Shown here: piece by piece, positions 1-28,107 of the stretch | How the letters are laid out: each line of letters begins with the position of its first letter | Numbering within the stretch: position 1 is the stretch's first letter | Source: a virus | DNA length: 64,000 nt | IMG/VR virus record: IMGVR_UViG_3300036766_000317 | Coordinates: 27,825 to 91,824 of that record | Reading direction: 5' to 3' (one strand) | Notes under the pieces: model-generated | Database searches by the model: none | The model's input: only the letters and a program-made list of their open reading frames with translations | What the model was told of the DNA's origin: nothing | Position numbers and translations under genes: made by a program

Positions 1-30
1 GTTCTTAATTCAAAAGAAAGGAGAAAGAAA

Positions 31-180
31 ATGAAAACCACCCGTACAGTGTATTTTTGTACAATTTGTAATACCCAACTTGATGTTTGTGGTTGGGGAA
101 ATCGTGCAGAATGTCCGGAATGTAACAAGATGGTTAATGTGAAATCAGTGGAAGTTCCGATTCTGAAAAAGGAGAACTGA
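31..180 (+). CDS. small zinc-ribbon protein (49 aa)
   Basis: Unrecognised protein with two CxxC pairs (CTIC near residues 10-13 and CPEC near 32-35), the usual pattern of a four-cysteine zinc ribbon. The ATG follows a good AAAGGAG ribosome site. It is the first of a run of tiny early-type genes, and a role in host takeover is only inferred from that setting. The next gene starts two bases after its stop. Confidence 0.7.
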   Translation: MKTTRTVYFCTICNTQLDVCGWGNRAECPECNKMVNVKSVEVPILKKEN

Positions 181-181
181 G

Positions 182-331
182 ATGCCAGTAGAAATCAAAA
201 TGATAGCCGGTGCTTTTCTTACTATCGGCATAACCGGAGCCGTGATCTGCATAGCTTCTCATGAATTTGTAGGAAGTTTGTGGTATATAGCTATTACCAT
301 CATTGCTGTTTGGGTTATCTTTAAAAAGTAA
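182..331 (+). CDS. small membrane protein (49 aa)
   Basis: Hydrophobic peptide with two probable membrane segments (about residues 7-24 and 30-47) and a short KK tail. The start lies just after the preceding stop, and the AAGGAG near the end of the upstream gene can serve as its ribosome site. Function unknown; a two-segment hairpin in the inner membrane is the simplest reading. Confidence 0.65.
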   Translation: MPVEIKMIAGAFLTIGITGAVICIASHEFVGSLWYIAITIIAVWVIFKK

Positions 332-344
332 AGGAGGAAAAATT

Positions 345-476
345 ATGGGTAAAGAAAAAGAAGTATGCTCTTGGTGCGGAAAAGAATTGCATGACAACGG
401 GGAAACCACATGGTGTGATTGTGGTTGGTGGGATGCTTTGCCCACAAGAGCCGAAGCCGAAGCCGAAACGAAGTAG
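345..476 (+). CDS. small zinc-ribbon protein (43 aa)
   Basis: Contains CSWC and CDCGWW, a likely four-cysteine zinc site, followed by an Ala/Glu-rich tail. AAAGGAGG lies upstream of the ATG. Function unknown. A two-hairpin intergenic element follows the stop. Confidence 0.7.
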   Translation: MGKEKEVCSWCGKELHDNGETTWCDCGWWDALPTRAEAEAETK

Positions 477-479
477 ACA

Positions 480-535
480 ATCATGAGGACACTGGAAATA
501 ATTCCAGTGTCCGAAGGGGCTGTCTACATCCCCAA
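480..535 (+). repeat. two-hairpin intergenic element, subfamily B copy 1
   Basis: Perfect 11-bp stem (487-497 with 502-512, ATAA loop), then a GGGG/CCCC hairpin (516-519 with 530-533) followed by AATT. It lies between the preceding stop and the ribosome site of the next gene. The layout matches the other subfamily B copies, though the sequence differs. Confidence 0.6.
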
Positions 536-557
536 TTCAGAAGGGAAGGAAAGAGTT

Positions 558-716
558 ATGCAAATGTCCAATTTAGAATCAATCAAGATTCGTTGCCAAG
601 AACAAGGATTCTTTGCCCGAATACATCGGTTCAAGAAAGGCAAGAAGCGGATGTTTCGTAAGAAAGAACGGATAAATCGGCACATAACCAGGAAAGTTCT
701 TCATATTGAACAGTAG
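558..716 (+). CDS. small basic protein (52 aa)
   Basis: Very Lys/Arg-rich hypothetical protein. I chose the ATG at 558 because AAGGAAAGAG lies directly upstream, and because the same frame further upstream (from 483) runs through a perfect hairpin that belongs to the intergenic element family. The basic composition suggests nucleic-acid binding, but no domain is recognised. Confidence 0.6.
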   Translation: MQMSNLESIKIRCQEQGFFARIHRFKKGKKRMFRKKERINRHITRKVLHIEQ

Positions 717-721
717 TTTGA

Positions 722-780
722 TGGTAGCGGATTAGCCATGAGAAATCATGGCTTTTCCGCTGCAATTAAGCAGCGATTAA
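722..780 (+). repeat. two-hairpin intergenic element, subfamily B copy 2
   Basis: AGCGGATT leader, 8-bp stem with a GAAA loop (734-741 with 746-753), then a CGCTGC/GCAGCG hairpin (758-763 with 770-775) and an A/T-rich tail before AAAGGAGG. The second stem differs completely from the GGTGT/ACACC of other copies, yet pairing is kept. Confidence 0.65.
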
Positions 781-804
781 TTCCTTAAAGGAGGAAAGAA
801 GAGT

Positions 805-1434
805 ATGAGTAAAAAATCGAAGAAGGTTGCGGAGAAGAAGGCATTGACTCCGATTAAGAAGTTGACGCCGATTGCAAAGGCGGACGAGTCAATGAAAGCC
901 AAACAGACTGCGGCGATTGCGGAACTCAAGGCAAAATCGAAGGATGCTGCACCCATAGAGGCACCCGTCGTTGCAGCTCCTGTCCGTCCCGAAATGCCTG
1001 CTGACTTCTGTATGGAGAAAGCAGACTGGGACGGCGCTGGTGTGTGCTACGATGCAGGAAGTAATAACTGCGGAACGTGTACGAAGGATTTTCCTGAGAC
1101 CGTTGCCGTGTGCATCGAGCGCATGAAATTCCTCGGTGGTACTGTGAAAACGGCAAAGACGAAGAAAGCTGGAACAGCGAAGGCTCGGGTTGCCAAGAAT
1201 GGTGCGAAACCGCAATGCCTCGTCATTGATGATCTGTTGCGAGCATCAACGGCAATGGCAGACATGATCGCCTCGTTTGCTGCAATCGCATACGCTGGAG
1301 ATGCAAAAGCGGCAGAAGGTCGTATCAATCGGCACCTGAAATCCATTCGTGTCGGCGAGTACGTCAGATCGGCTGTAATGAAGGAATTCATTGCTTATCT
1401 GGCCGTTGCTGCGCCGGCAGCTCCCGCTGCTTAG
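805..1434 (+). CDS. Lys/Ala-rich protein with central cysteine cluster (209 aa)
   Basis: Residues 1-65 are a low-complexity Lys/Ala/Pro stretch. A central segment (about 66-110) holds several cysteines, including a CGTC motif, and could bind a metal. The C-terminal third is helical and Ala-rich. The gene is richer in G+C than its neighbours. The strong AAAGGAGG site and the composition suggest an abundant, possibly DNA-associated protein, but I do not recognise a family. A Lys/Ala-rich gene of similar style lies at 19321. Confidence 0.75.
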   Translation: MSKKSKKVAEKKALTPIKKLTPIAKADESMKAKQTAAIAELKAKSKDAAPIEAPVVAAPVRPEMPADFCMEKADWDGAGVCYDAGSNNCGTCTKDFPETVAVCIERMKFLGGTVKTAKTKKAGTAKARVAKNGAKPQCLVIDDLLRASTAMADMIASFAAIAYAGDAKAAEGRINRHLKSIRVGEYVRSAVMKEFIAYLAVAAPAAPAA

Positions 1435-1443
1435 TGAGAAATT

Positions 1444-1507
1444 GCAGAGGGCACGGGGTGAGAAAGTTTCATCCTGTGTAATGCACACTACCGTCCCAAG
1501 TCGGTGA
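1444..1507 (+). repeat. two-hairpin intergenic element, subfamily A copy 1
   Basis: Starts GCAGAGGGC. The first stem is 10 bp with two G-T pairs (1452-1461 with the arm ending at 1478). It is followed by GTAATGCACA and a short second hairpin ACCG/CGGT around the shared loop TCCCAAGT. It precedes a strong ribosome site. Confidence 0.75.
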
Positions 1508-1530
1508 GAAAATCTAAGAAAGGAGAGAGT

Positions 1531-1761
1531 ATGAAAAAGTATTTGGTAGAAGTCCGAAAGAAAGGTGAGAAATTCAGAGAACCTGGTGAACTGATTGAGA
1601 CAGTAAATACCATTCTCAAAGCGGAAGAAGTAGGAAATTTCAACCCGATCTTTTGCATCTACAAAGACAAACGTGTCATGGTAAGTTCTAAAGAAGGAGA
1701 TTTGAGTGATCCTTTTCGTCGGGAAACTTCATATCTGGAAAGTCTTTATATTGAAATCTAA
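1531..1761 (+). CDS. hypothetical protein (76 aa)
   Basis: Unrecognised small soluble protein, basic at the N-terminus. The ATG at 1531 follows AAAGGAGAGAGT, the ribosome-site style used throughout this region, so it is preferred over the upstream in-frame codon at 1504. It lies directly downstream of a subfamily A element. Confidence 0.7.
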   Translation: MKKYLVEVRKKGEKFREPGELIETVNTILKAEEVGNFNPIFCIYKDKRVMVSSKEGDLSDPFRRETSYLESLYIEI

Positions 1762-1787
1762 CCACCAACCAAGAAAGGAGTATTGCA

Positions 1788-1955
1788 ATGAACAAACTTC
1801 AGAAATTGGTAGCACAATCGGTAATCGTCGTCCTGTACGGAAACCAGCTTCAAGATGAGAAGTTTGACCAAAGACAGTTACTTCTCGCCAAAGCAATGTA
1901 CGAGAAAGAAGTGGACAGACAGTTGAGAAAAGGGTTGGATCTTCGCAATATGTAG
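1788..1955 (+). CDS. hypothetical protein (55 aa)
   Basis: Small, probably helical protein with mixed charge in its C-terminal half. Good AAAGGAG site before the ATG. No family recognised. Confidence 0.65.
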   Translation: MNKLQKLVAQSVIVVLYGNQLQDEKFDQRQLLLAKAMYEKEVDRQLRKGLDLRNM

Positions 1956-1958
1956 TTT

Positions 1959-2008
1959 CAGCGTGGGAAGCAGAAATCTTCTGCTTCTCGCGGTGTACCT
2001 ACACCAAT
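1959..2008 (+). repeat. two-hairpin intergenic element, subfamily B copy 3
   Basis: First hairpin GAAGCAG/CTGCTTC (from 1967 to 1987), then GGTGT/ACACC (1992-1996 with 2001-2005) followed by AATAA. It directly precedes the ribosome site of the next gene. Confidence 0.7.
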
Positions 2009-2029
2009 AACTATGAGAAAGGAGAGAGT

Positions 2030-2398
2030 ATGGGAAATTCAATAAGATTGCACAAAGAGTTCGGTGTAAATCCGACAATCCTAAAATGCTTCCTCTGCGG
2101 AGAGGATAAAAATGAAATTGCTCTGTTGGGCGCTTCCTATAAAGGACAAGCCCCTATGCACATGTGCATAGACCAAACACCTTGTGACAAGTGTAAGGAA
2201 TACATGAAACAAGGTGTAATCCTAATCTCCGTGAGAGATGGGGAATCAGGAAGTGATCCTTATCGCACAGGGGGTTGGTGCGTTGTCAAAAGAGAAGCAA
2301 TGACCAACATCATTGATGATCCAAAATTGCTTGAGAAAGGAGCGATGTTTGTTCCTGATCCAGTATGGAAACAATTGGGTCTTCCAAAATTTGTATGA
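2030..2398 (+). CDS. cysteine-rich hypothetical protein (122 aa)
   Basis: Two CxxC pairs, CFLC near residues 20-23 and CDKC near 52-55, suggest a zinc-binding N-terminal half. The second half has no recognisable motif. The ATG follows AAAGGAGAGAGT. No function can be assigned. Confidence 0.75.
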   Translation: MGNSIRLHKEFGVNPTILKCFLCGEDKNEIALLGASYKGQAPMHMCIDQTPCDKCKEYMKQGVILISVRDGESGSDPYRTGGWCVVKREAMTNIIDDPKLLEKGAMFVPDPVWKQLGLPKFV

Positions 2399-2403
2399 TT
2401 AAC

Positions 2404-2460
2404 CTCAGCTCAGACATGCCAAGAAATTGGTATGTCTGCTGGTGAGATCAATCACCAACT
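2404..2460 (+). repeat. two-hairpin intergenic element, subfamily B copy 4
   Basis: Ten-bp first stem with one G-T pair (2411-2420 with 2429-2438), then GGTGA/TCACC (2441-2445 with 2452-2456) and an AACTA tail before AAAGGAGG. Confidence 0.7.
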
Positions 2461-2485
2461 AACTAAAGGAGGAAAGGAGAGTATT

Positions 2486-3253
2486 ATGACATCCAGCGTT
2501 CCAAAAGAAGAAATCATCTCGAAAATTATGAAGTTGCTGGCTCTGGGCAGTTCTGAAAAGAACGACAATCCTCATGAGCGGGAAACTGCTTCAAGGATGG
2601 CCGCAAAGCTCATGGCTGAGTGGAGCATCGACTTTGCAGAACTCAGAAGTTCCAAGCCATCAGAGGATGCTTTCGTCACTTATGAGGTGTCAGGTTCGGA
2701 AGACCGAAAAGTGGATTTTGAATCCTCCCTTGCTGGCAGTATTGCAAGGGCTTTCGATTGTAAGATCATCAACACCTGGACAAAATCATTGGATCATCGG
2801 TGGGTTATTGCTTTTGTCGGATCAAAGCATGATCTGGAAATCTCCGTCTATTTCTTCAAACATATTCGGAGAACGATGTATGCAATGTCCATTAAAAATG
2901 TGACCGTCGAAACAGTGAGGCCCAGAAACGGCAGACGAGCTGCCGGTACAGATGTAAATATGGCTCGGAGAAACTACTGCTTCGGTATGGTTGAGACGAT
3001 CAGCACCCGCATGGAAGACCTCTACAAAAAGCGGGAAGAGTTCATCCCGTCAGATTGCCGAGCCCTCGTCATTGTCAAGAAACAGGGATTGGAAAAATAT
3101 TTCAATCAGCAATATCCGAACAGAGTTTCTGGTAGAAGAACTTCTTTACGAGGAGATTTAACAGCATTCGGCAAGGGGCAGGAAGATGGAAAGCGTGTGA
3201 ACCTCAGTCGGCCCATTAGCAGTAATAATCAACAATCGGCCCAAATTGGATAA
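2486..3253 (+). CDS. DUF2786-like protein (255 aa)
   Basis: Residues 5-50 resemble the DUF2786 domain common in phages and plasmids: a KIxKLLALxxS opening, then an N-x-HE-x-E-x-A pattern and a MAAKLMAEW helix. The rest resembles the DUF7168-type extension seen with it. Biochemical role unknown. The ATG at 2486 has an ideal AAAGGAGGAAAGGAG site; an upstream in-frame codon at 2432 would run through the intergenic element. Confidence 0.75.
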   Translation: MTSSVPKEEIISKIMKLLALGSSEKNDNPHERETASRMAAKLMAEWSIDFAELRSSKPSEDAFVTYEVSGSEDRKVDFESSLAGSIARAFDCKIINTWTKSLDHRWVIAFVGSKHDLEISVYFFKHIRRTMYAMSIKNVTVETVRPRNGRRAAGTDVNMARRNYCFGMVETISTRMEDLYKKREEFIPSDCRALVIVKKQGLEKYFNQQYPNRVSGRRTSLRGDLTAFGKGQEDGKRVNLSRPISSNNQQSAQIG

Positions 3254-3268
3254 AAGGAGGAAAGGAGC

Positions 3269-3412
3269 ATGAAGTCTTTCAACATTTATTTCAGGGACCT
3301 CAATGAAGATGCTCAAAAGAGGTTATTGGAACGGTTTGAAACAACTCCCGAAGAGGAAAATTGGGATACAGATGTGTTTCCAATAGCAATACTCGATCGG
3401 GAAGAGGAGTAA
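3269..3412 (+). CDS. small acidic protein (47 aa)
   Basis: Very acidic hypothetical protein (Glu/Asp-rich C-terminus) with an N-terminal IYFRDLNEDAQ stretch. Similar small acidic proteins occur in many phages without a known role. AAAGGAGGAAAGGAG precedes the ATG. Confidence 0.65.
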   Translation: MKSFNIYFRDLNEDAQKRLLERFETTPEEENWDTDVFPIAILDREEE

Positions 3413-3433
3413 TTCCAGTTCGGAAATGGGAGC

Positions 3434-3510
3434 AATTCTGAGAGGTTGAGTGTTAAGCATTCGGTAGGAGTTGTTCCTGTTTCTTCTGGTGGAATTATCC
3501 ACCTTTACTA
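3434..3510 (+). repeat. two-hairpin intergenic element, subfamily B copy 5 (divergent)
   Basis: The second hairpin is clear: GGTGGA/TCCACC (3488-3493 with 3498-3503), followed by a TTTACTA tail. The first stem-loop is longer and less regular than in other copies, with a G-T-containing GGAGCAA/TTGTTCC pairing. Confidence 0.45.
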
Positions 3511-3529
3511 TAAGAAAAGGAGAAGAGAG

Positions 3530-3709
3530 ATGAAGAATGTTACTATGGAAACGAAAGGTCAGAATTTGGTTCTGACGGTCGATCTGTCAAAATCCTTTGG
3601 AGCCAGTGCTTCCGGGAAGACGATCATCATCGGAACGACTGAAGGCAATCAGCCCGTTGCCGGACATCCCGGTGTTAGTGTGGGGGTGAACGTCTACAAA
3701 AAGAAGTAG
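3530..3709 (+). CDS. conserved-type small protein (59 aa)
   Basis: Beta-rich peptide with a VLTVDLSKSFG stretch, an SGKTIIIGTTEG stretch and a VNVYKKK end. I recognise the pattern as one seen in many phage and bacterial hypothetical proteins, but no function is known. SGKT here is not a convincing P-loop. The ATG at 3530 is chosen over 3446 because of the adjacent AAAGGAG. Confidence 0.7.
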   Translation: MKNVTMETKGQNLVLTVDLSKSFGASASGKTIIIGTTEGNQPVAGHPGVSVGVNVYKKK

Positions 3710-3766
3710 GCAGAGGGCTCCCGCTTCGGCGGGAGTAATGCACAATCTCGGTCCCAAGTCCGAGAA
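3710..3766 (+). repeat. two-hairpin intergenic element, subfamily A copy 2
   Basis: GCAGAGGGC, 7-bp stem with a TTCG loop (3718-3724 with 3729-3735), GTAATGCACA, then TCTCGG/CCGAGA (3746-3751 with 3760-3765) closing the TCCCAAGT loop. Confidence 0.8.
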
Positions 3767-3783
3767 ATTAGAAAGGAGAAAGT

Positions 3784-3987
3784 ATGGGATATGCAATGAT
3801 GGTAAGCGAATGTGGAGCATGTCACCAGATATTTTGCTACAATCCCCATCTGGTGCCCAGTCTAAACAATGTTCCTTTTTGTAAACGGTGTGTCGATGCT
3901 TCAGCACCTGAAAGAATCAAAAGGGGATTGGTTCCAATCAAATATTCAGAAGAAGCATACAAACCGATGGACGAATGTGAACTTTAA
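3784..3987 (+). CDS. zinc-ribbon protein (67 aa)
   Basis: Two CxxC pairs (CGACH near residue 10 and CKRC near residue 37) form a classical zinc ribbon. The tail is short and mixed-charge. AAAGGAG is placed well before the ATG. Unknown role; it may be a nucleic-acid or RNA-polymerase binding peptide. Confidence 0.7.
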   Translation: MGYAMMVSECGACHQIFCYNPHLVPSLNNVPFCKRCVDASAPERIKRGLVPIKYSEEAYKPMDECEL

Positions 3988-4007
3988 ATTTGAAAGGAGA
4001 AATCTCT

Positions 4008-4133
4008 ATGAAACCGTTATACTGTACGCAAAACAAAGGCAAGTGCGAAACTTGCTCCCTTACCAACTATGGTCGGGATTGTCGGAATGTTCCGATAGCT
4101 ATAAATCGGAAAAAGGCAAAGCCTGAGAAGTAA
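4008..4133 (+). CDS. small cysteine-rich protein (41 aa)
   Basis: Four cysteines in the first 25 residues (C6, then CETC, then C24) and a basic tail suggest a minimal zinc-binding peptide. AAAGGAG site upstream. Unknown function. Confidence 0.6.
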   Translation: MKPLYCTQNKGKCETCSLTNYGRDCRNVPIAINRKKAKPEK

Positions 4134-4138
4134 CTTTG

Positions 4139-4195
4139 GCAGAGGGCTCCGTCAGAACTGACGGAGTAATGCACAATTCCGGTCCCAAGTCCGGT
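4139..4195 (+). repeat. two-hairpin intergenic element, subfamily A copy 3
   Basis: GCAGAGGGC, perfect 8-bp stem (4147-4154 with 4159-4166), GTAATGCACA, and a CCGG/CCGG hairpin (4179-4182 with 4191-4194) around TCCCAAGT. Confidence 0.8.
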
Positions 4196-4227
4196 TTGTA
4201 GCTAAAACAAAAGGAGGAAAGAGAGAT

Positions 4228-5139
4228 ATGAGTGAAACAATGGAAGGGTTGGCCTATGAGCTAACATCCGCAGAGCGGAAAGATGTTCGTGATCGTTATC
4301 CGAAGACCTACTTCCCAAGTCCGGTCTTAGAACCGGTGTGGGCAGGTCGTCGGGAACTCCGCAGAATTCCAGACAAGTTTGCCATTGTCGATCAATGTCG
4401 TCCAGGACCCTTAGACGCATCGAATCAGGTATTCGGGATCTGTTCGGATCAGTACAAAATCGTTCCCTTTGAAGACGTGGTGCATATGGTAGAAAATTCA
4501 GTCGGAAAATTGACTGAATACGGGAAGGTTCAAATCTGCCCGCACACCTATCTTGACGGAGCCAGATTAAACATTGGCATCAAATTTCCTGAGATGAAAC
4601 ATGAAATCAGGAAACTCGATTCCATTATTCCGAAAGTAGAGGTGTTTTCCTCTTATGACCTATCAACAAAGTTGATGGGTCGTTTCGGAGCATTCCAGCT
4701 TAAATGCCTGAATGGGGCGGGTATCTGGAAGTCCTTCAAGAGCTTTGCAAAAAGGCATCTCCAGAATCTGTTTCTGAATGAACTCGGAAACAACATCAGT
4801 GAAGGTATGGCTCTTTTCGGGGAACAGGTTGATTCGTGGAAAAAGTGGACTGAACTGAAGTTAGACCAGAAACTCTACGATACTGTTTGGGATGAACTCC
4901 CTTTCTCTGCTGCGGAACGTATCAAGATCGAAGCATTACCCGAAATCGGTACGAATCTTCAGTTGGGTCAAGCGATCAAAGGAAATTCCCTTGATCTTTG
5001 GAGCCTTTCATCGGTATTGACACAATTCGCTACCCATGGTGTCAAAAGCGAATTGCGCCGTATCGAACTGGAACCGGCAATCGCAAGAGTGATGGACCTC
5101 ACTTTCGACCGAGCCGCTGTTGCGGGACTCGTGCACTAA
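4228..5139 (+). CDS. DUF932-family protein (303 aa)
   Basis: Resembles the DUF932 phage/plasmid protein family: a QVFGICSDQYKIVP segment near residues 67-80, an HTYLDGARLNIGIKFPE segment and a central FGAFQLKCLNGAG segment. Members are widespread in phages and plasmids with no established activity. The length is typical. The strong AAAGGAGGAAAGAGAG site supports the ATG at 4228. It is the largest gene of the first 10 kb. Confidence 0.8.
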   Translation: MSETMEGLAYELTSAERKDVRDRYPKTYFPSPVLEPVWAGRRELRRIPDKFAIVDQCRPGPLDASNQVFGICSDQYKIVPFEDVVHMVENSVGKLTEYGKVQICPHTYLDGARLNIGIKFPEMKHEIRKLDSIIPKVEVFSSYDLSTKLMGRFGAFQLKCLNGAGIWKSFKSFAKRHLQNLFLNELGNNISEGMALFGEQVDSWKKWTELKLDQKLYDTVWDELPFSAAERIKIEALPEIGTNLQLGQAIKGNSLDLWSLSSVLTQFATHGVKSELRRIELEPAIARVMDLTFDRAAVAGLVH

Positions 5140-5172
5140 GAAACAACGAACTGAGCCAGAAAGGAGGTACTT

Positions 5173-5409
5173 GTGGAGAATGCTTCTATAAAAATGTTAA
5201 CCGTTGATGATTGTAATCTCCGAATGACTGAGCTAACAAAAGAGTTGGAAGAAGCAATTGAGAAATTGGGCCATTGTGAAGCTGTGGATTTGCTTGCGGC
5301 TAAGATTGCTGTTTGGGAAAGAGTCCGGCATCATTTGGTAAGAGGACAAATCATCACAATTGATGGGGAAGAAAAACTGAAGATGTGGGAAAACGTTTTA
5401 TCGGCATAA
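5173..5409 (+). CDS. hypothetical protein, GTG start (78 aa)
   Basis: Mostly helical small protein (LTKELEEAIEKLG and similar heptad-like stretches), possibly a short coiled coil. The GTG at 5173 is chosen because AAAGGAGG ends five bases upstream. No family recognised. Confidence 0.7.
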   Translation: MENASIKMLTVDDCNLRMTELTKELEEAIEKLGHCEAVDLLAAKIAVWERVRHHLVRGQIITIDGEEKLKMWENVLSA

Positions 5410-5411
5410 CC

Positions 5412-5475
5412 GCAGAGGGCGGACAGTCAGAAATTGGCTGTCCGTAATGCACTATCTGAGTCCCAAGTCTCAGAA
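5412..5475 (+). repeat. two-hairpin intergenic element, subfamily A copy 4
   Basis: GCAGAGGGC, 9-bp stem with one G-T pair (5421-5429 with 5435-5443), GTAATGCAC, then TCTGAG/CTCAGA (5455-5460 with 5469-5474) around TCCCAAGT. Confidence 0.8.
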
Positions 5476-5497
5476 ATTCTATTAAAGGAGGAAAGGG

Positions 5498-5758
5498 ATG
5501 GAACCGATTCAAGACAATTTCTTCAAGAGGTTTCGGAAGAAGGTGGAAGGTATCTTCTACCGAACTCGCGGAAATAAAGGGACTGCCGATCTTGATCCGA
5601 TCATTCGGATCGGTCGTCACCATGGTGGGGGTGCTCGTCTTTCTGCTATTTCTTTTGGCGAAAAGAAAGCGTCTCCCACACTCCGAAAGTACCGACAGCA
5701 CAGAGATCGAGTAAACAAATTGGGAGCGATCTCCCGCAGGAAGAACCGCATTAATTAG
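5498..5758 (+). CDS. small basic protein (86 aa)
   Basis: Arg/Lys-rich throughout, with a glycine/histidine patch in the middle (HHGGG). Probably nucleic-acid binding by composition only. AAAGGAGGAAAGG precedes the ATG. The last base of its stop is also the first base of the next intergenic element. Confidence 0.65.
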   Translation: MEPIQDNFFKRFRKKVEGIFYRTRGNKGTADLDPIIRIGRHHGGGARLSAISFGEKKASPTLRKYRQHRDRVNKLGAISRRKNRIN

Positions 5759-5816
5759 CAGAGGGCAGGGCCTATTGAGGCCCTGTAATGCTACATAGCC
5801 AGTCCCAAGTCTGGTT
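5758..5816 (+). repeat. two-hairpin intergenic element, subfamily A copy 5
   Basis: GCAGAGGGC, perfect 8-bp stem (5766-5773 with 5778-5785), GTAATGC, then AGCCAG/CTGGTT (5797-5802 with 5811-5816) around TCCCAAGT. The leading G belongs to the upstream TAG stop. Confidence 0.8.
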
Positions 5817-5842
5817 AAACTAAAGAGAAAGGAGAGAGTATT

Positions 5843-6106
5843 ATGATTACCAAAGAGGATGCTTTGAAGCTGAAATATCGGGATGAACTGCATTTCGGAG
5901 AATGTAGAAAGAAGGTCTCTCCCAGAGGCGGTGTAAAAATTACCAATACCATCGTCCGAGTAAACGGGAAAGTCAAAACGTGGAAACAGAATCTGAGTAG
6001 GTTTGAAGTTCCGATCAAACATGGACTATACGATCATAGTTATGTTGATGAGCGGAATGCTCATGATTTCCATCTCCCGAAAGACTGCCCGTTACTGAAG
6101 GAGTAA
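5843..6106 (+). CDS. hypothetical protein (87 aa)
   Basis: Begins with an ITKEDALKL helix followed by a basic, probably beta-rich stretch. No family recognised. AAAGGAGAGAGT precedes the ATG. Confidence 0.7.
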   Translation: MITKEDALKLKYRDELHFGECRKKVSPRGGVKITNTIVRVNGKVKTWKQNLSRFEVPIKHGLYDHSYVDERNAHDFHLPKDCPLLKE

Positions 6107-6110
6107 ATTT

Positions 6111-6344
6111 ATGCACCTACTTCATGAGACTACAGTCAAGAATACAGATGGAACTTATGAAATCACCGTCTACATCGTCGAAGATGGAAAACGAAGAGGT
6201 CCTTACACTTATCTGATTCCATCGGATAAAGAAGTCAGGGACTTCCTTGCTCTGTATCAAAAAGGAAAAAGAGATGGGTCAAGATTTCATGGGAAAGCCC
6301 TATCCCTTCTTAACAAACACCGAACCAGGTTAATCAGAAAATAG
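6111..6344 (+). CDS. hypothetical protein (77 aa)
   Basis: Unrecognised; an N-terminal beta-like half (YEITVYIVEDGKRRG) and a basic helical C-terminus. It starts four bases after the previous stop, with GGAG near the end of the upstream gene as the likely ribosome site, so the pair is probably co-translated. Confidence 0.65.
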   Translation: MHLLHETTVKNTDGTYEITVYIVEDGKRRGPYTYLIPSDKEVRDFLALYQKGKRDGSRFHGKALSLLNKHRTRLIRK

Positions 6345-6357
6345 GAGGAAAGAGAGC

Positions 6358-6639
6358 ATGAAAAAATCGCAGGTGGCATTGGCTAACATGATTCGTATAG
6401 CCAAAGCATACGGTAATACACATACGGTAGAGATGGAACAAGCTGAGAAAGCCCTTGCTGAACTTTTGACTGAAAAAGGTCATTCAGTAAGTGATTGGAA
6501 ATGTGTTCAATGTGATCAGGATCAGTGGGGGAAAGATGTAACCCTCTCGTCTGTCGCAGACGGAGGTGTTCCCATCTGTCCCTATTGCGAGAACGATATG
6601 ATCTTGGTTGAAGAAAGATGGGTGGAGGTGGAGCCATGA
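6358..6639 (+). CDS. zinc-ribbon protein (93 aa)
   Basis: An N-terminal helical half (MEQAEKALAELL region) is followed by a four-cysteine ribbon with CVQC near residue 46 and CPYC near residue 72. AGGAGGAAAGAGAG precedes the ATG. Its stop overlaps the next start as ATGA, indicating coupled translation. Confidence 0.7.
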   Translation: MKKSQVALANMIRIAKAYGNTHTVEMEQAEKALAELLTEKGHSVSDWKCVQCDQDQWGKDVTLSSVADGGVPICPYCENDMILVEERWVEVEP

Positions 6640-6962
6640 AGAAGGAATACACCGATGTCAAACTCAAGATGACCCGTCGCAAGCTGATTGCCCTCGACAA
6701 AAAGGATATAGGGAAATGGACACATCAGGAATGTGTTGAGGCAGATCGGCTTATCCAAAACACAGCCATTCGGAATCTGAGGAAGAAATTATCCTTCTTC
6801 CAGGGAGGAACAGGAAGACTTGTTTCCAACTATGCCATACTGATGGCTCAGTTCCACTACGGATCGGCAGAAACAGACGACTTCCTTACAGCAATGGGCT
6901 GTTATGAGGATTGGATGTTCTCCGAGGAGCAGAACAAGAAACGGCATTCCAAAAAGTCTTAA
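6636..6962 (+). CDS. hypothetical protein (108 aa)
   Basis: Basic, helical, no recognised domain. The ATG at 6636 is chosen because it overlaps the upstream stop (ATGA) and is preceded by GGAGGTGGAG. An intergenic element follows its stop. Confidence 0.7.
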   Translation: MKKEYTDVKLKMTRRKLIALDKKDIGKWTHQECVEADRLIQNTAIRNLRKKLSFFQGGTGRLVSNYAILMAQFHYGSAETDDFLTAMGCYEDWMFSEEQNKKRHSKKS

Positions 6963-6965
6963 AGT

Positions 6966-7023
6966 CAGCAGATTGAGCGGGAACCATTTCCCGCTCTTTC
7001 TGGTGTTTTTAAGACACCAATAA
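6966..7023 (+). repeat. two-hairpin intergenic element, subfamily B copy 6
   Basis: GCAGATT leader, perfect 9-bp stem (6975-6983 with 6988-6996), TTTCT linker, GGTGT/ACACC hairpin (7002-7006 with 7014-7018), then AATAAA. A clean representative of the subfamily. Confidence 0.8.
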
Positions 7024-7043
7024 ACCAAAGGAGGAAAGAAAGT

Positions 7044-7526
7044 ATGAAGAAAACTTGTGATATTTGCAAGACCTATTGGAGAGTTCGGAATGAAAAGAAG
7101 ACCGAACATCCGTGCCATCCCTATCAGAACCCGATGGAAAAAGTCTGTCAGGATTTTGAGATGGAATGGACTCAAGAAGCCTGTCTAAGAAAATATCCGA
7201 GAGTGGTGGCCCATCTGATCTGTGCCAGTCTCGGCTATTTTACACCTCAATCAGCAGCAAATGCCATTTCGTTTTACAAACACGGAAAGGCGTTTTTCTG
7301 CGAGTGGTATTCCCATATGACCAAATATTCTCGGGATAACTACAAGGGTGACTATTTTGATGAAGTCATCTGTAAACGGGTTGGGGAAGAAACTCTGAGA
7401 TTGGCATTTGTAGGTCGTCATTCCCATCATGGCTATATGACCGAGATTAAGCAAGCCCGACATCTTGTGGCCGCAGAATTGAAAACTTCGGGAGCTACAT
7501 CGGGAATGCTTGCATCTTGGTTTTAG
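7044..7526 (+). CDS. hypothetical protein with N-terminal CxxC (160 aa)
   Basis: CDIC near residue 5 plus further Cys/His in the first 40 residues suggest a small metal site. The remainder is mixed helical with no recognised fold. AAAGGAGGAAAGAAAG precedes the ATG. It is flanked on both sides by subfamily B elements. Confidence 0.7.
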   Translation: MKKTCDICKTYWRVRNEKKTEHPCHPYQNPMEKVCQDFEMEWTQEACLRKYPRVVAHLICASLGYFTPQSAANAISFYKHGKAFFCEWYSHMTKYSRDNYKGDYFDEVICKRVGEETLRLAFVGRHSHHGYMTEIKQARHLVAAELKTSGATSGMLASWF

Positions 7527-7535
7527 GCTGAATAT

Positions 7536-7586
7536 AGCGGGTTGGGCAGGAAGCGTCCTGCTCTTCCTGGTGCATTCAGTACCAAA
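7536..7586 (+). repeat. two-hairpin intergenic element, subfamily B copy 7
   Basis: Eight-bp first stem with one G-T pair (7544-7551 with 7556-7563), CTTCC linker, then a shorter TGGT/ACCA hairpin (7568-7571 with 7581-7584) and an AATAAA tail. Confidence 0.65.
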
Positions 7587-7607
7587 TAAAGAGAGAAAGG
7601 AGAGGGT

Positions 7608-7937
7608 ATGAAAACAGTAGATATTATGGAACGTCTGAAAATTCCAGAATGGAAGGCGAAGGTTGTCAATGTGCTTACCAAAGAACACGCCTCATCCCAT
7701 TCCGATGTTGACGACATCCTCGGAATTATTGAAACCCTTCTTGAAGGGTACGGGGTAGAACCACTCAGGGGAGATCATGTTGATAATTACTATATGGATA
7801 TCAACATCCTCTACATTAATTTGGGGGACACATACACACCCACCGTTCTGTATGATACACTCCTAAACAGATTCTTTATCTGTTCGTGGGGTGATTATAT
7901 TGAATCCAAACCGAAACGATTTCCGATGAATGCTTGA
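7608..7937 (+). CDS. hypothetical protein (109 aa)
   Basis: Mixed helix/strand protein with an acidic middle. A DNYYMDINILYINLGDTYTP segment is distinctive but not one I can assign. AAAGGAGAGGGT precedes the ATG. Confidence 0.7.
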   Translation: MKTVDIMERLKIPEWKAKVVNVLTKEHASSHSDVDDILGIIETLLEGYGVEPLRGDHVDNYYMDINILYINLGDTYTPTVLYDTLLNRFFICSWGDYIESKPKRFPMNA

Positions 7938-7940
7938 GAA

Positions 7941-7993
7941 TAGCAGATTGGACGGGAATTTCCCGTCCTTTCTGGTGTGCTTAAACACCAATA
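7941..7993 (+). repeat. two-hairpin intergenic element, subfamily B copy 8
   Basis: GCAGATTGG leader, perfect 8-bp stem (7950-7957 with 7961-7968), CTTTCT linker, GGTGT/ACACC (7974-7978 with 7985-7989), then AATAAA. The layout is nearly identical to copy 6 with a different first stem. Confidence 0.8.
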
Positions 7994-8010
7994 AAAAGAA
8001 AGGAGAGGGT

Positions 8011-8355
8011 ATGGACAGAAAAATGTCGAGTGATCTGGATAACTACATTACCGGACATTACGGGGAAGATCAGTTCAAAAGACCTCGGAAAAAAGATAAA
8101 AAGGGGAAGGAATCATTGGTCCATGAATTAGAACACCAGATGAAGAACCTTAACGTCAGTCAGATGTTGGAATTAGTCAAGAGATCGGGAAATACGGAAA
8201 AACGCAGATTCCGATTAAAAGGCCCTACGGGCAGTTTAGATGGAACTATCCATGATGCCGATTTCGGTATCTTGACTATTGACGAAGTACCAGAGTTCTT
8301 TCTGGCAAAAGATTTCTTGTTGGCCAATGACGTAGTTTGGGAACTCATTAACTAA
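8011..8355 (+). CDS. hypothetical protein (114 aa)
   Basis: A charged N-terminal half (RPRKKDKKGKE) is followed by a helix and a C-terminal beta-rich half. No family recognised. The ATG at 8011 is chosen over the in-frame codon at 7930 because AAAGGAGAGGGT lies upstream of it and the longer frame would cover the RNA element. Confidence 0.7.
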   Translation: MDRKMSSDLDNYITGHYGEDQFKRPRKKDKKGKESLVHELEHQMKNLNVSQMLELVKRSGNTEKRRFRLKGPTGSLDGTIHDADFGILTIDEVPEFFLAKDFLLANDVVWELIN

Positions 8356-8374
8356 ACAGAGAAAGGAGATTAGC

Positions 8375-8596
8375 ATGGAAGAGCCAATCAAAATTCCAGA
8401 GAAGGACAAATTTGTCCGAAATTGTCCGGGTCCCAGATATAAAGTAATTTCAGGTCCTGGAGGGCATTACGTCTATGATTACAAGTCTCTGGACGTGGTG
8501 AGGAAAGACGGGAAATTCTTTATGGGCAAAGAACCGTCGGAAGCCAGAGAGTTCCTTCAATCTCTAAATGAAGAAGCTCCCCTTATAGAAAGGTAA
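8375..8596 (+). CDS. hypothetical protein (73 aa)
   Basis: Small basic protein with a proline/glycine-rich N-terminal half (NCPGPRYKVISGPGG). AAAGGAG precedes the ATG. No function assigned. Confidence 0.65.
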   Translation: MEEPIKIPEKDKFVRNCPGPRYKVISGPGGHYVYDYKSLDVVRKDGKFFMGKEPSEAREFLQSLNEEAPLIER

Positions 8597-8608
8597 GGAT
8601 GGTAATCT

Positions 8609-8746
8609 ATGAAATGTGACCACTGCAATATCGAATTGAAAAAACGCAAGACCCCTCCAAGAACCGCGACAATTGACGGGGGAAAGTATTATGACTATTT
8701 TCAATGCCCAAAATGCAAAACGAATTATGCCAAAGCCAAAAAGTAG
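8609..8746 (+). CDS. small zinc-ribbon protein (45 aa)
   Basis: CDHC at residues 3-6 and CPKC near 33-36 make a compact zinc ribbon. The ribosome site (AAGGTAAGGAT) is weaker than that of most neighbours. Function unknown. The last base of its TAG stop starts the next intergenic element. Confidence 0.65.
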   Translation: MKCDHCNIELKKRKTPPRTATIDGGKYYDYFQCPKCKTNYAKAKK

Positions 8747-8799
8747 CAGAGGACGCTGCTTCGGCAGCGTAATGCACAAATCCAGTCCCAAGTCTGGAT
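8746..8799 (+). repeat. two-hairpin intergenic element, subfamily A copy 6
   Basis: GCAGAGGAC, CGCTGC-TTCG-GCAGCG hairpin (8754-8769), GTAATGCACA, then ATCCAG/CTGGAT (8780-8785 with 8794-8799) around TCCCAAGT. Confidence 0.8.
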
Positions 8800-8824
8800 A
8801 AAATAAGAAAAGGAGGAAAGAGCT

Positions 8825-9052
8825 ATGCCAAAAAACGTAAGAAATTTCTGGATCGAAGCAGATGTCGATGGGGGAACTCCCATCGGAGCAGGCCCTAAAT
8901 CCAAAGATGGAGGATTTTCTCTGTCCATCTTCATGCGAGACAAAGGATTCGTCAAGAGGGTCGCCAACATCTCAGGAGTCGGGGGAAGTGAATTGAAATT
9001 ATCAATTCATACGGAAGATGGTAAATATTTACAGTATACTACACAAAGGTAA
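8825..9052 (+). CDS. hypothetical protein (75 aa)
   Basis: Beta-rich small protein with an IEADVDGGTPIGAGPKSKDG stretch. No family recognised with confidence. AAAGGAGGAAAGAG precedes the ATG. Confidence 0.7.
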   Translation: MPKNVRNFWIEADVDGGTPIGAGPKSKDGGFSLSIFMRDKGFVKRVANISGVGGSELKLSIHTEDGKYLQYTTQR

Positions 9053-9076
9053 CAGATGAAAAAGGAGGAAAGAGCT

Positions 9077-9280
9077 ATGCCAATCGAAACAGATTTCACC
9101 AATTTGCTCAAGCATATCGATGATGCTTCTGATGGATTGGAACAAAAGGTCGAATCGACGGAAGAGGAGTTGGACACTTTGAATACTCTCCTTACGAGAA
9201 AAAAAGAGCTTGTCGATAAAATCAACTCCCTCGCCGAAGAGATTGAGGACTTCCTCAACGACGCCAATTCCCTCATCTGA
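9077..9280 (+). CDS. small coiled-coil protein (67 aa)
   Basis: Almost entirely acidic heptad-like helix, consistent with a short coiled coil. The ATG at 9077 has AAAGGAGGAAAGAG upstream. Unknown function; such peptides often act by binding a partner protein. Confidence 0.7.
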   Translation: MPIETDFTNLLKHIDDASDGLEQKVESTEEELDTLNTLLTRKKELVDKINSLAEEIEDFLNDANSLI

Positions 9281-9282
9281 AT

Positions 9283-9338
9283 GCAGAGGACAGCCTCAAC
9301 AGAGGCTGTAATGGACATCTCGGTTCCAAGTCCGAGAA
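9283..9338 (+). repeat. two-hairpin intergenic element, subfamily A copy 7
   Basis: GCAGAGGAC, perfect 8-bp stem (9290-9297 with 9302-9309), GTAATGGACA (one change from consensus), TCTCGG/CCGAGA (9318-9323 with 9332-9337) around TTCCAAGT. This is the last copy seen in the window. Confidence 0.75.
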
Positions 9339-9362
9339 ATAAATTAAAGGAGGGAAGAGAGT

Positions 9363-9596
9363 ATGCACAAAAGACCCACACCAAATCAAGAGAGGTCTTT
9401 CCGTCACTTCTTCGGAAAATCTACCAGTGTTTACTGGAATCCTTTATTTGGATTTGATATCGTTCAATTTGATGCCGACATGCAGTCCGAACAAGGATAC
9501 GTTGAGGATGGAAAAACAAGCCTTCGGGAATTTCTCGTCCAGAAATTCGGTCAAGAGGCTTCGGATCTAGTAAACTCTTTAATAGGAGGTGTTTAA
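9363..9596 (+). CDS. hypothetical protein (77 aa)
   Basis: No recognised family. The middle is rich in aromatic residues (VYWNPLFGFDIVQFDAD). AAAGGAGGGAAGAGAG precedes the ATG. Its stop overlaps the next start. Confidence 0.65.
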   Translation: MHKRPTPNQERSFRHFFGKSTSVYWNPLFGFDIVQFDADMQSEQGYVEDGKTSLREFLVQKFGQEASDLVNSLIGGV

Positions 9597-9871
9597 TGGA
9601 AAAGAAAACAGTTGTGATTTTCCGAAAGTTCCCGGAGGGGGATATTATAGCCATGTTCCCCGAAATTCAGGCGGATCAAAATCGTTGTGATTGTCTGAGC
9701 TATCAGCATATCGGCCAGCATGGTCCTGCTTCATATTTTCTGGTAGACCGAACGAAATTAGCTATTGCTGCTGAATATGCAGAGCTGAAAGCGGAGCTTG
9801 AATCAATCGGCTATGATCTGATAATCCGAAAACGGATCAACAAGCATTGGTATGAGGTAAAGGAGGGGTAA
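9596..9871 (+). CDS. conserved-type hypothetical protein (91 aa)
   Basis: Opens with VVIFRKFPEGDIIAMFPE and continues with YQHIGQHGPAS. This pattern recurs in uncharacterised phage and bacterial small proteins, but I know of no function. TAGGAGGTGTTTA precedes the ATG. Confidence 0.7.
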   Translation: MEKKTVVIFRKFPEGDIIAMFPEIQADQNRCDCLSYQHIGQHGPASYFLVDRTKLAIAAEYAELKAELESIGYDLIIRKRINKHWYEVKEG

Positions 9872-9873
9872 AT

Positions 9874-10068
9874 ATGCGTTCATGGAGGTGGTATATACAC
9901 TTTCCACAAGATGCGTATGCTTTAGGACCAATTCATTTTGAAAAGAGGGATTACACAAAGCCTCCTAATGAAAGGGATGTCCGACAGTATGCGAGAGAGT
10001 GGGAGGGTGTGAAACGATTGCCGACGGGGTTTTCTTGTTGGTCTGCTGAGTATTGGTCTGCTGAGTAA
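9874..10068 (+). CDS. hypothetical protein (64 aa)
   Basis: Short protein ending in a direct repeat (WSAEYWSAE), which reflects a small DNA duplication at the 3' end. The ribosome site AAAGGAGGGG lies inside the upstream gene, so translation is probably coupled. Confidence 0.6.
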   Translation: MRSWRWYIHFPQDAYALGPIHFEKRDYTKPPNERDVRQYAREWEGVKRLPTGFSCWSAEYWSAE

Positions 10069-10078
10069 AGGAGGAAGT

Positions 10079-10246
10079 ATGAAACTGACTGAGTTTGAAT
10101 GGCATCTGAAAAAGATTGCCGAATCAACCTTGAAAATGCCTGATACTATGGTAAAGATCATAGGCGGGATGACAAAAGATGAGGCTAAAGAAATTCTGGG
10201 TAAATTAGGCAAAAAAGAATTGGAAGAGGATGTAGAAAAGATATAA
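10079..10246 (+). CDS. hypothetical protein (55 aa)
   Basis: Small Lys/Glu-rich helical protein. AAAGGAGG lies close to the ATG. It is the last gene before a strong promoter at 10264, so it probably ends the small-gene transcription unit. I see no clear terminator after it. Confidence 0.6.
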   Translation: MKLTEFEWHLKKIAESTLKMPDTMVKIIGGMTKDEAKEILGKLGKKELEEDVEKI

Positions 10247-10263
10247 TCCACCTAAAATAGTGC

Positions 10264-10292
10264 TTGACATATCAATATGTTTTTGATATACT
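10264..10292 (+). promoter_or_regulatory. sigma70-type promoter with spacer dyad
   Basis: TTGACA (10264-10269), 17-bp spacer, TATACT (10287-10292). The spacer is flanked by a 7-bp inverted repeat ATATCAA/TTGATAT (10269-10275 with 10283-10289), which could bind a repressor. It drives the gene at 10324. Confidence 0.8.
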
Positions 10293-10323
10293 AAAATCCA
10301 AGTAGAAAAAGGAGAAGGAGTGT

Positions 10324-27058: not shown

Positions 27059-28107
27059 AAATAAAAAGAATAGAACTCCGTGACATCTTAGCAAAGCTGA
27101 TTCCGGGATTAGCTAAGAGGGAATTTATTCCTGCATTGACCCACTTTATGTTCTTGTCGGAAGAGATCGTAACCTACAATGACAAAGTGGCCATCATACA
27201 TCCATTTGAAAATACGGAACATCCATTCAGCATTAAAGGAATGGAATTCTTCCGTATCATAGATGGTATGACTGATGACGAAATAACCATTCTTGTAGAA
27301 GAGGCCAAGATCAAGATACGTTCAAAAAGTACATCTGCAACGATGAAAATTCTAGGGGAGAATTTGAATAAACTCCCCGAATCAATTGCAGAGTTGAAGA
27401 AAGGACAGAAGGGATGGAAAGAGTTACCAGAAGATTTCTTAGAAGGTATTTCTCTATGCTCTTTTTCTACTTCCCCCGATCTGTCTAAGGGAATCATGGC
27501 TTGTGTATGGATCATCGGGGATACCTGCTATTCATTAGACCATGCTCGGTCAAGCCGTTTCAAGATGTCTTCCGAGATGCCAGATATTTTATACCTTATA
27601 GGCAAAGAATGCTCCGAGCTGGTAAAATTTCCAGTAACTGAATACTGTACAGATAAAAAGTGGGCTCATTTTCGTACAGAGGACGGAGTTGTTTTCAGTT
27701 GTATGCCCATGAAAGGATCATATCCTTTAGAGAAAGTGAATGCCGCTTATGACACAGCCTTACACAGTTCTATGGTACAATTGCCAAAAGAACTGAAATC
27801 TATTGTGGACAGTGTTGTTGTCTTAGCTGGATTGCTTGAGAACAATGTTGGCAGATGGATTGAATTGACTTTGCAGGACGGAGAAATCTTTGTGAAAGCA
27901 ACGAGTGAGTTGGGAGAAGTGGAAAAGACCATCCCTTGTAAATATGATGCTGATCCTATTTCATTACGACTGAATGTGAAGTTCCTCAGTCAGATTCTGG
28001 ATAAAGCTACTTCTCTGTCTAAGAATGAGGGAATGGTTCATTTTAAGAGCGGGCCGTTCCAACATATTATGGCACAGACAAGTAAACCTTCTACGGAGAC
28101 AAAATAG
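27055..28107 (+). CDS. dnaN: DNA polymerase sliding clamp, beta-type (350 aa)
   Basis: Ring-forming processivity factor for the polymerase. There is no strict motif, but the length and three-domain rhythm fit bacterial beta clamps: an N-terminal KIKRIELRDILAKLIPGL strand-helix, a central YSLDHARSSRF stretch, and a C-terminal LRLNVKFLSQILD plus IMAQT end. The DNA polymerase and clamp loader lie just downstream. I chose the ATG at 27055, which overlaps the upstream stop; an ATG at 27046 sits too close to the AAGGAGG. Confidence 0.75.
   Translation: MKIKRIELRDILAKLIPGLAKREFIPALTHFMFLSEEIVTYNDKVAIIHPFENTEHPFSIKGMEFFRIIDGMTDDEITILVEEAKIKIRSKSTSATMKILGENLNKLPESIAELKKGQKGWKELPEDFLEGISLCSFSTSPDLSKGIMACVWIIGDTCYSLDHARSSRFKMSSEMPDILYLIGKECSELVKFPVTEYCTDKKWAHFRTEDGVVFSCMPMKGSYPLEKVNAAYDTALHSSMVQLPKELKSIVDSVVVLAGLLENNVGRWIELTLQDGEIFVKATSELGEVEKTIPCKYDADPISLRLNVKFLSQILDKATSLSKNEGMVHFKSGPFQHIMAQTSKPSTETK

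Follow-up and report, generated by a model that had tools for sequence, protein, structure and literature searches.

In phage T7, the polycistronic early mRNA is cut between its cistrons by RNase III, a host protein, and the resulting mRNAs carry hairpins at their 3' ends. Theta ribozymes of gut phages, which are HDV-like, are self-cleaving RNAs that have been proposed to process phage transcripts (PMC10879173), and in bacteria twister and hammerhead ribozymes have been found near each other and near Mu-like phage genes (PMC10085705, PMC5408937). The reason for this proximity is unknown or speculative in these papers, as is the role of twister in bacteria and phages, which has been an open question since the ribozyme's discovery (PMC10085705, PMC5408937). 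Twister-P5 is a described permutation of twister with stems P1, P2, and P4, pseudoknots T1 and T2, and a U-A cleavage site (PMC5408937, PMC6154101). Here we describe a 64,000-nt stretch of viral DNA (the window; positions 27825-91824 of a virus record 91,824 bases long) in which seven elements matching this ribozyme lie between the genes of a single gene string. Our literature search found no paper describing a series of twisters at gene junctions, and an earlier mention is possible.

The seven elements and their ribozyme class

To assign the elements to a class, the entire window was scanned against the 4227 families of Rfam release 15. All seven matched RF02684 (Twister-P5, type-P5 twister self-cleaving ribozyme) at 41.7-64.4 bits, above the family's gathering score of 37.6 bits, with E-values of 2.7e-5 to 4.2e-11 for the full window and all families. 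No other Rfam family reached threshold in the window, and a scan of the full 91,824-base record gave RF02684 matches only at the seven window copies. Twister sister, hammerhead, pistol, and hatchet ribozymes were likewise absent at gathering threshold from the window, this contig, and 20 array loci. A preliminary description had read the region 1444-9338 as holding seven diverged copies of a structured intergenic RNA with covarying stems, and that much stands, its positions agreeing with the covariance-model hits to within one base. Its further statement that no named RNA family has this form was wrong, and the match to RF02684 rules out a novel family. The layout it gave, namely GCAGAGGRC, a variable stem, GUAAUGCACA, and a second stem around UCCCAAGU, is present in all seven copies and translates directly into twister-P5 terms. 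The variable stem is P1, the second stem is P4 (the pairings quoted for it are correct), the pairing of the leading GCA with TGC in six copies is helix P2, and what was called the GAGG/GUAA internal loop is L1, which holds the active site. Missing from that description were pseudoknots T1 and T2, both of which occur in the window copies. T2 is AC/GU, and T1 is GGG/CCC in most copies and GGA/UCC, a compensated change, at 9283. Two copies carry a mismatch, that at 8746 in T1 (GGA/CCC, one A.C mismatch) and that at 9283 in P2 (UGG, a G.G mismatch). Pairing in a P5 stem was no better in the window copies than in shuffles (z 0.3). Since P5 is optional in type-P5 twister (PMC5408937) and is not part of the RF02684 model structure, membership of the family is unaffected. 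Judged by sequence, then, the seven elements add new members to an established ribozyme class, the type-P5 twister.

All seven copies lie on the + strand. Copy 1 (1443-1505; 45.3 bits against RF02684) follows an upstream gene whose stop is at 1434, has its predicted cleavage site between U1479 and A1480, and precedes an ATG at 1531. Copy 2 (3709-3763; 55.9 bits; predicted cleavage between 3736 and 3737) is abutted by the upstream stop TAG at 3707-3709, and the next ATG is at 3784. Copy 3 (4138-4194; 59.1 bits) is predicted to be cut between 4167 and 4168, ahead of an ATG at 4228, and copy 4 (5411-5472; 42.9 bits; predicted cleavage between 5445 and 5446) lies between a stop ending at 5409 and an ATG at 5498. 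In the next two copies a stop codon overlaps the first two ribozyme bases, the TAG lying within ...TAGCAGAGG at 5757 and 8745. Copy 5 (5757-5814; 64.4 bits; predicted cleavage between 5786 and 5787) has its TAG at 5756-5758 and the next ATG at 5843, and copy 6 (8745-8797; 48.7 bits; predicted cleavage between 8770 and 8771) has these at 8744-8746 and 8825. Copy 7 (9282-9335; 41.7 bits; predicted cleavage between 9309 and 9310) is flanked by a stop ending at 9280 and an ATG at 9363. An eighth, divergent copy was found just upstream of the window with the covariance model described below (record positions 27334-27382, L083:13334-13382; 23.6 bits, E 6e-5). It has a 3-bp P1 and a compensated T1 of AGG/CCU, and it falls under the Rfam threshold.

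Judged from its genes, the phage is siphovirus-like, since the record encodes a tape-measure protein, a J-like tail fibre, a DNA polymerase, a primase, a helicase, and a UvsX-like recombinase. Neither near-identical DNA nor a near relative of the first 12 kb of the window was found in the phage collection, and the DNA polymerase is ~23% identical to those of the nearest listed named phages. The ribozymes are housed in a gene string at 1-10246 (+ strand, from gene calls) made up of small, mostly unknown, co-directional genes, most of them with a strong Shine-Dalgarno sequence. This string gave few Pfam or PHROG matches, none of known function, and the genes flanking the ribozymes offered no functional clue. 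Promoter scans within the string returned counts near the shuffled expectation. A promoter-like TTGACA-17-TATCAT lies ~2 kb before the first base of the window, near L083:11785, and a sigma-70-like TTGACA-17-TATACT with TG, a consensus match only, lies at 10264-10292 (+ strand), within 10247-10323 and right after the string. The next transcription unit probably starts at this second promoter-like site.

Other large gaps in the string hold a second kind of intergenic RNA, at 477-557, 716-804, 1956-2029, 2399-2485, 3413-3529, 6963-7043, 7527-7607, and 7938-8010 of the window. Its first hairpin has 10-17 bp and in many cases contains a tandem U.U mismatch (AUUG/CUUU). A second hairpin of 5-6 bp, frequently GGUGN..NCACC, begins directly after it and is followed by AAUAA. 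Folding z-scores ranged from -3.2 to -6.9, and no Rfam family matched. Like the ribozymes, this two-hairpin element is placed between a stop codon and a ribosome-binding site, and it possibly represents another processing element. Two two-hairpin elements with other stem sequences also occur among the twister ribozymes of another phage, L119 (reverse-complement 3619-3708 and 3975-4061), and again in L120. A pattern search for the element gave 19 hits, about the estimated chance number, and was set aside.

Covariation and conserved bases

Because MAFFT misaligned the seven copies, an equal-length seed alignment was used instead. The covariance model (R1) was seeded with 18 equal-length relatives, one window copy among them, and encoded P1, P2, and P4 only, without T1 or T2. 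Searching with R1 gave 149 matches in 20 loci, and the window copies were recovered with E-values of 7.8e-11 to 7.9e-20. The covariation claimed in the preliminary description was borne out in the wider alignment. In an alignment of 147 distinct relatives, each of the 18 pairs, those of T1 and T2 among them, showed two-sided compensatory change, and 97.0% of cells were paired, as compared with 69.2% in shuffles. The covariation score was 0.637, against 0.150 for shuffles and at most 0.069 when partners were slid by 1-3 columns, and none of 500 shuffles reached any of the five covariation measures. By stem, 98.8% of cells were paired in P2, 95.9% in P1, and 99.1% in P4, and no pair in these stems lacked two-sided changes. 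Since T1 and T2 were absent from the aligning model, their pairing was not fitted: T1 (L1 with L4) was paired in 99.5% of cells, with two-sided changes in all three pairs, and T2 (L2 with L4) in 89.7%, in the states AC/GU, GC/GC, GG/CC, and AG/CU. T1 was fully paired in 124 of 130 unique copies, while within-contig permutations of its partners gave at most 108. Ten T1 states were seen (GGG/CCC, GAG/CUC, GGA/UCC, GCA/UGC, GCG/CGC, AGG/CCU, CGG/CCG, GUG/CAC, UGG/CCA, and CCA/UGG).

Across 142 sequences, the active-site G directly after P2, the two As past the scissile bond, and one A of L4 were 100% invariant, and the base preceding the cut was U in 96%. The U-A cleavage site and the pseudoknots found here match published descriptions of twister (PMC6154101, PMC5408937). 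These results bear on whether the elements might be inactive structural RNAs descended from twister and kept as mRNA-stabilising hairpins or protein-binding sites. Protection of RNA ends could be achieved by the P1 and P4 hairpins on their own, and the T1 or P2 mismatches of two window copies would suit such a role; however, stabilising hairpins would have no need of the T1 and T2 pseudoknots or of invariance at the active-site G and the scissile A, and we regard this explanation as highly improbable.

Arrays at gene junctions in viral records

To learn how widely the arrangement occurs, loose and strict DNA patterns were used, solely as a means of reaching viral records, and copies were then counted by running the Rfam model over whole records. 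The strict pattern occurred in 77 stretches in viral contigs, as opposed to two contigs among ~85,000 bacterial and archaeal genomes, and all 37 records that it gave were confirmed by an Rfam match. The loose pattern yields many chance hits (tens, by estimate, in a collection of this size), with 17 of 50 records lacking an Rfam match, and the counts therefore rest solely on Rfam matches. In this way we found 235 twister-P5 copies in 69 viral records, this record included. At least two copies were present in 35 of the 69 records and at least five in 19, the largest arrays having 20, 15, and 14 copies, while about half of the records had one copy only; pattern-based discovery favours multi-copy records. 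A small number of the 69 records are near-duplicates, the ribozymes of L119 and L120 being identical. Copy numbers are lower bounds, as some copies with an inserted P3 or a long P1 (L116, L117) escape the Rfam model. Twister copies with an inserted P3 hairpin were seen at L116:6985-7087, 8601-8702, and 5672-5737, and one with a very long P1 at L117:5702-5832. The two bacterial bins with the strict pattern were an Omnitrophota MAG (L153, one copy) and an Oscillospiraceae MAG (L154, two copies), possibly representing phage sequence.

Placement between genes was precise. An upstream stop codon was found for 117 of 130 unique copies, the median distance from its end to the first ribozyme base being 0 nt (quartiles -2 and +2), and a start codon with a Shine-Dalgarno sequence lay downstream in 128 of 130, a median of 25.5 nt past P4. 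Between co-directional genes in the array regions, a ribozyme was present in 119 of 154 gaps of at least 60 nt as compared with 2 of 104 shorter gaps, counts that rely on a simple gene caller; some intergenic gaps have no ribozyme. Each array examined lies on one strand, that of the genes. Considering that a genome can hold many copies, with a single one per gap along strings of small, unknown genes, the repeats might be recombination linkers or selfish elements spreading between genes, with the RNA fold incidental. Yet the DNA of the window copies is only 61-79% identical in pairwise comparison while pairing and catalytic bases are kept, the flanks are unrelated (at background, median 44%), and all copies are oriented with the genes, which makes this explanation very unlikely. 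The same low identity with pairing kept rules out recent DNA duplication, a concern raised in the preliminary description.

A candidate role in transcript processing

Considering the position of the elements and the class to which they belong, we suggest that the seven ribozymes probably punctuate a polycistronic phage transcript, dividing it into separate mRNAs by intercistronic self-cleavage. Each ribozyme, set between the stop codon of one gene and the Shine-Dalgarno sequence of the next, would fold co-transcriptionally as P1, P2, and P4 form together with T1 (L1 with L4) and T2 (L2 with L4), and would then cut itself at the U-A step 3' of P1. On the upstream mRNA, the cut would leave a tail of ~30-50 nt that closes with the P1 hairpin and a 2',3'-cyclic phosphate. 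The new 5' end of the downstream mRNA would read 5'-OH-AAUGC, with the P4 hairpin next and the ribosome-binding site after it. The outcome would be mRNAs of one or a few genes with hairpin-protected ends and uncoupled lifetimes. In this scheme, cleavage in vivo and its effect on expression are inferred, and the expected chemistry of the cut ends follows the known twister mechanism. Transcript punctuation is supported by the recurrence of arrays across many phage records and by the promoter-like sites on either side of the string. Against it, some gaps have no ribozyme and not every gene would be separated, two window copies carry a mismatch (8746 in T1, 9283 in P2), and in about half of the records a single copy is present, to which punctuation of an entire string is inapplicable.

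An alternative for the function of cleavage, namely that it relieves sequestration of the Shine-Dalgarno sequence, was rejected, as predicted accessibility was alike before and after the cut (0.60 and 0.63, respectively; P = 0.20). In these predictions, unchanged accessibility favours mRNA cutting over a translational switch. A related explanation holds that the ribozymes are regulated switches. Whether cutting occurs, and neighbouring genes are joined or separated, would then depend on a ribosome at termination, a protein, or an alternative fold. The stop codon lies at or in the 5' edge of the ribozyme, and among the 117 mapped copies 33 have it overlapping their first two bases. A ribosome terminating there could mask P2 and prevent folding, and cleavage may be partial or regulated. 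Such switching would also be in keeping with three other phages, L117, L118, and L122, in which a segment directly before the Shine-Dalgarno sequence shows complementarity to nt 2-8 of the 3' cleavage product. Compared with shuffled segments, this complementarity had z-scores of -8.2, -7.2, and -3.8, and segments swapped between copies of the same phage did as well in 1-4 of 200 trials, a test weakened by the relatedness of the copies. Compensatory changes were observed in the segment among copies. Because the active fold uses nt 2-8 in P2 and T2, it is incompatible with pairing to the segment. However, the segment is transcribed after the ribozyme and, with a fast ribozyme, would act only on the cut product. 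Moreover, it was not found in this window's copies (z +1.2), and no conserved ligand-like extra domain is present. Regulated switching is an unlikely account of the elements as a whole.

Returning to punctuation by self-cleavage, the segment in L117, L118, and L122 could, after the cut, cap the new 5' end, the covarying segment beside the Shine-Dalgarno sequence re-pairing with it so that the former ribozyme core would become a protective 5' stem. We tentatively raise the broader possibility, to which we give somewhat less than even weight, of a widespread phage strategy in which up to 20 ribozymes split transcripts without protein and some lineages cleave and then cap.

With respect to the RNA itself, the elements are no different from RF02684 (clan CL00120), sharing its P1, P2, and P4 stems, T1 and T2 pseudoknots, conserved nucleotides, and permutation. 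What goes beyond the description of that family is the genomic setting, with arrays of up to 20 at stop codon/ribosome-binding-site junctions of phage gene strings. What merits further attention is the way the elements recur at gene junctions in many phages, not the RNA family, and the regular series point to one concrete job, mRNA processing. The bacterial twister and hammerhead ribozymes near Mu-like genes are similar in being self-cleaving ribozymes clustered in phage-related DNA, whereas here a single class forms a regular series in one gene string. Theta ribozymes differ in fold and are associated with the 3' ends of tRNAs, not with mRNA junctions. The RNase III sites of T7 work in a like manner; however, the cutter in T7 is a host protein, whereas here the RNA itself would make the cut.
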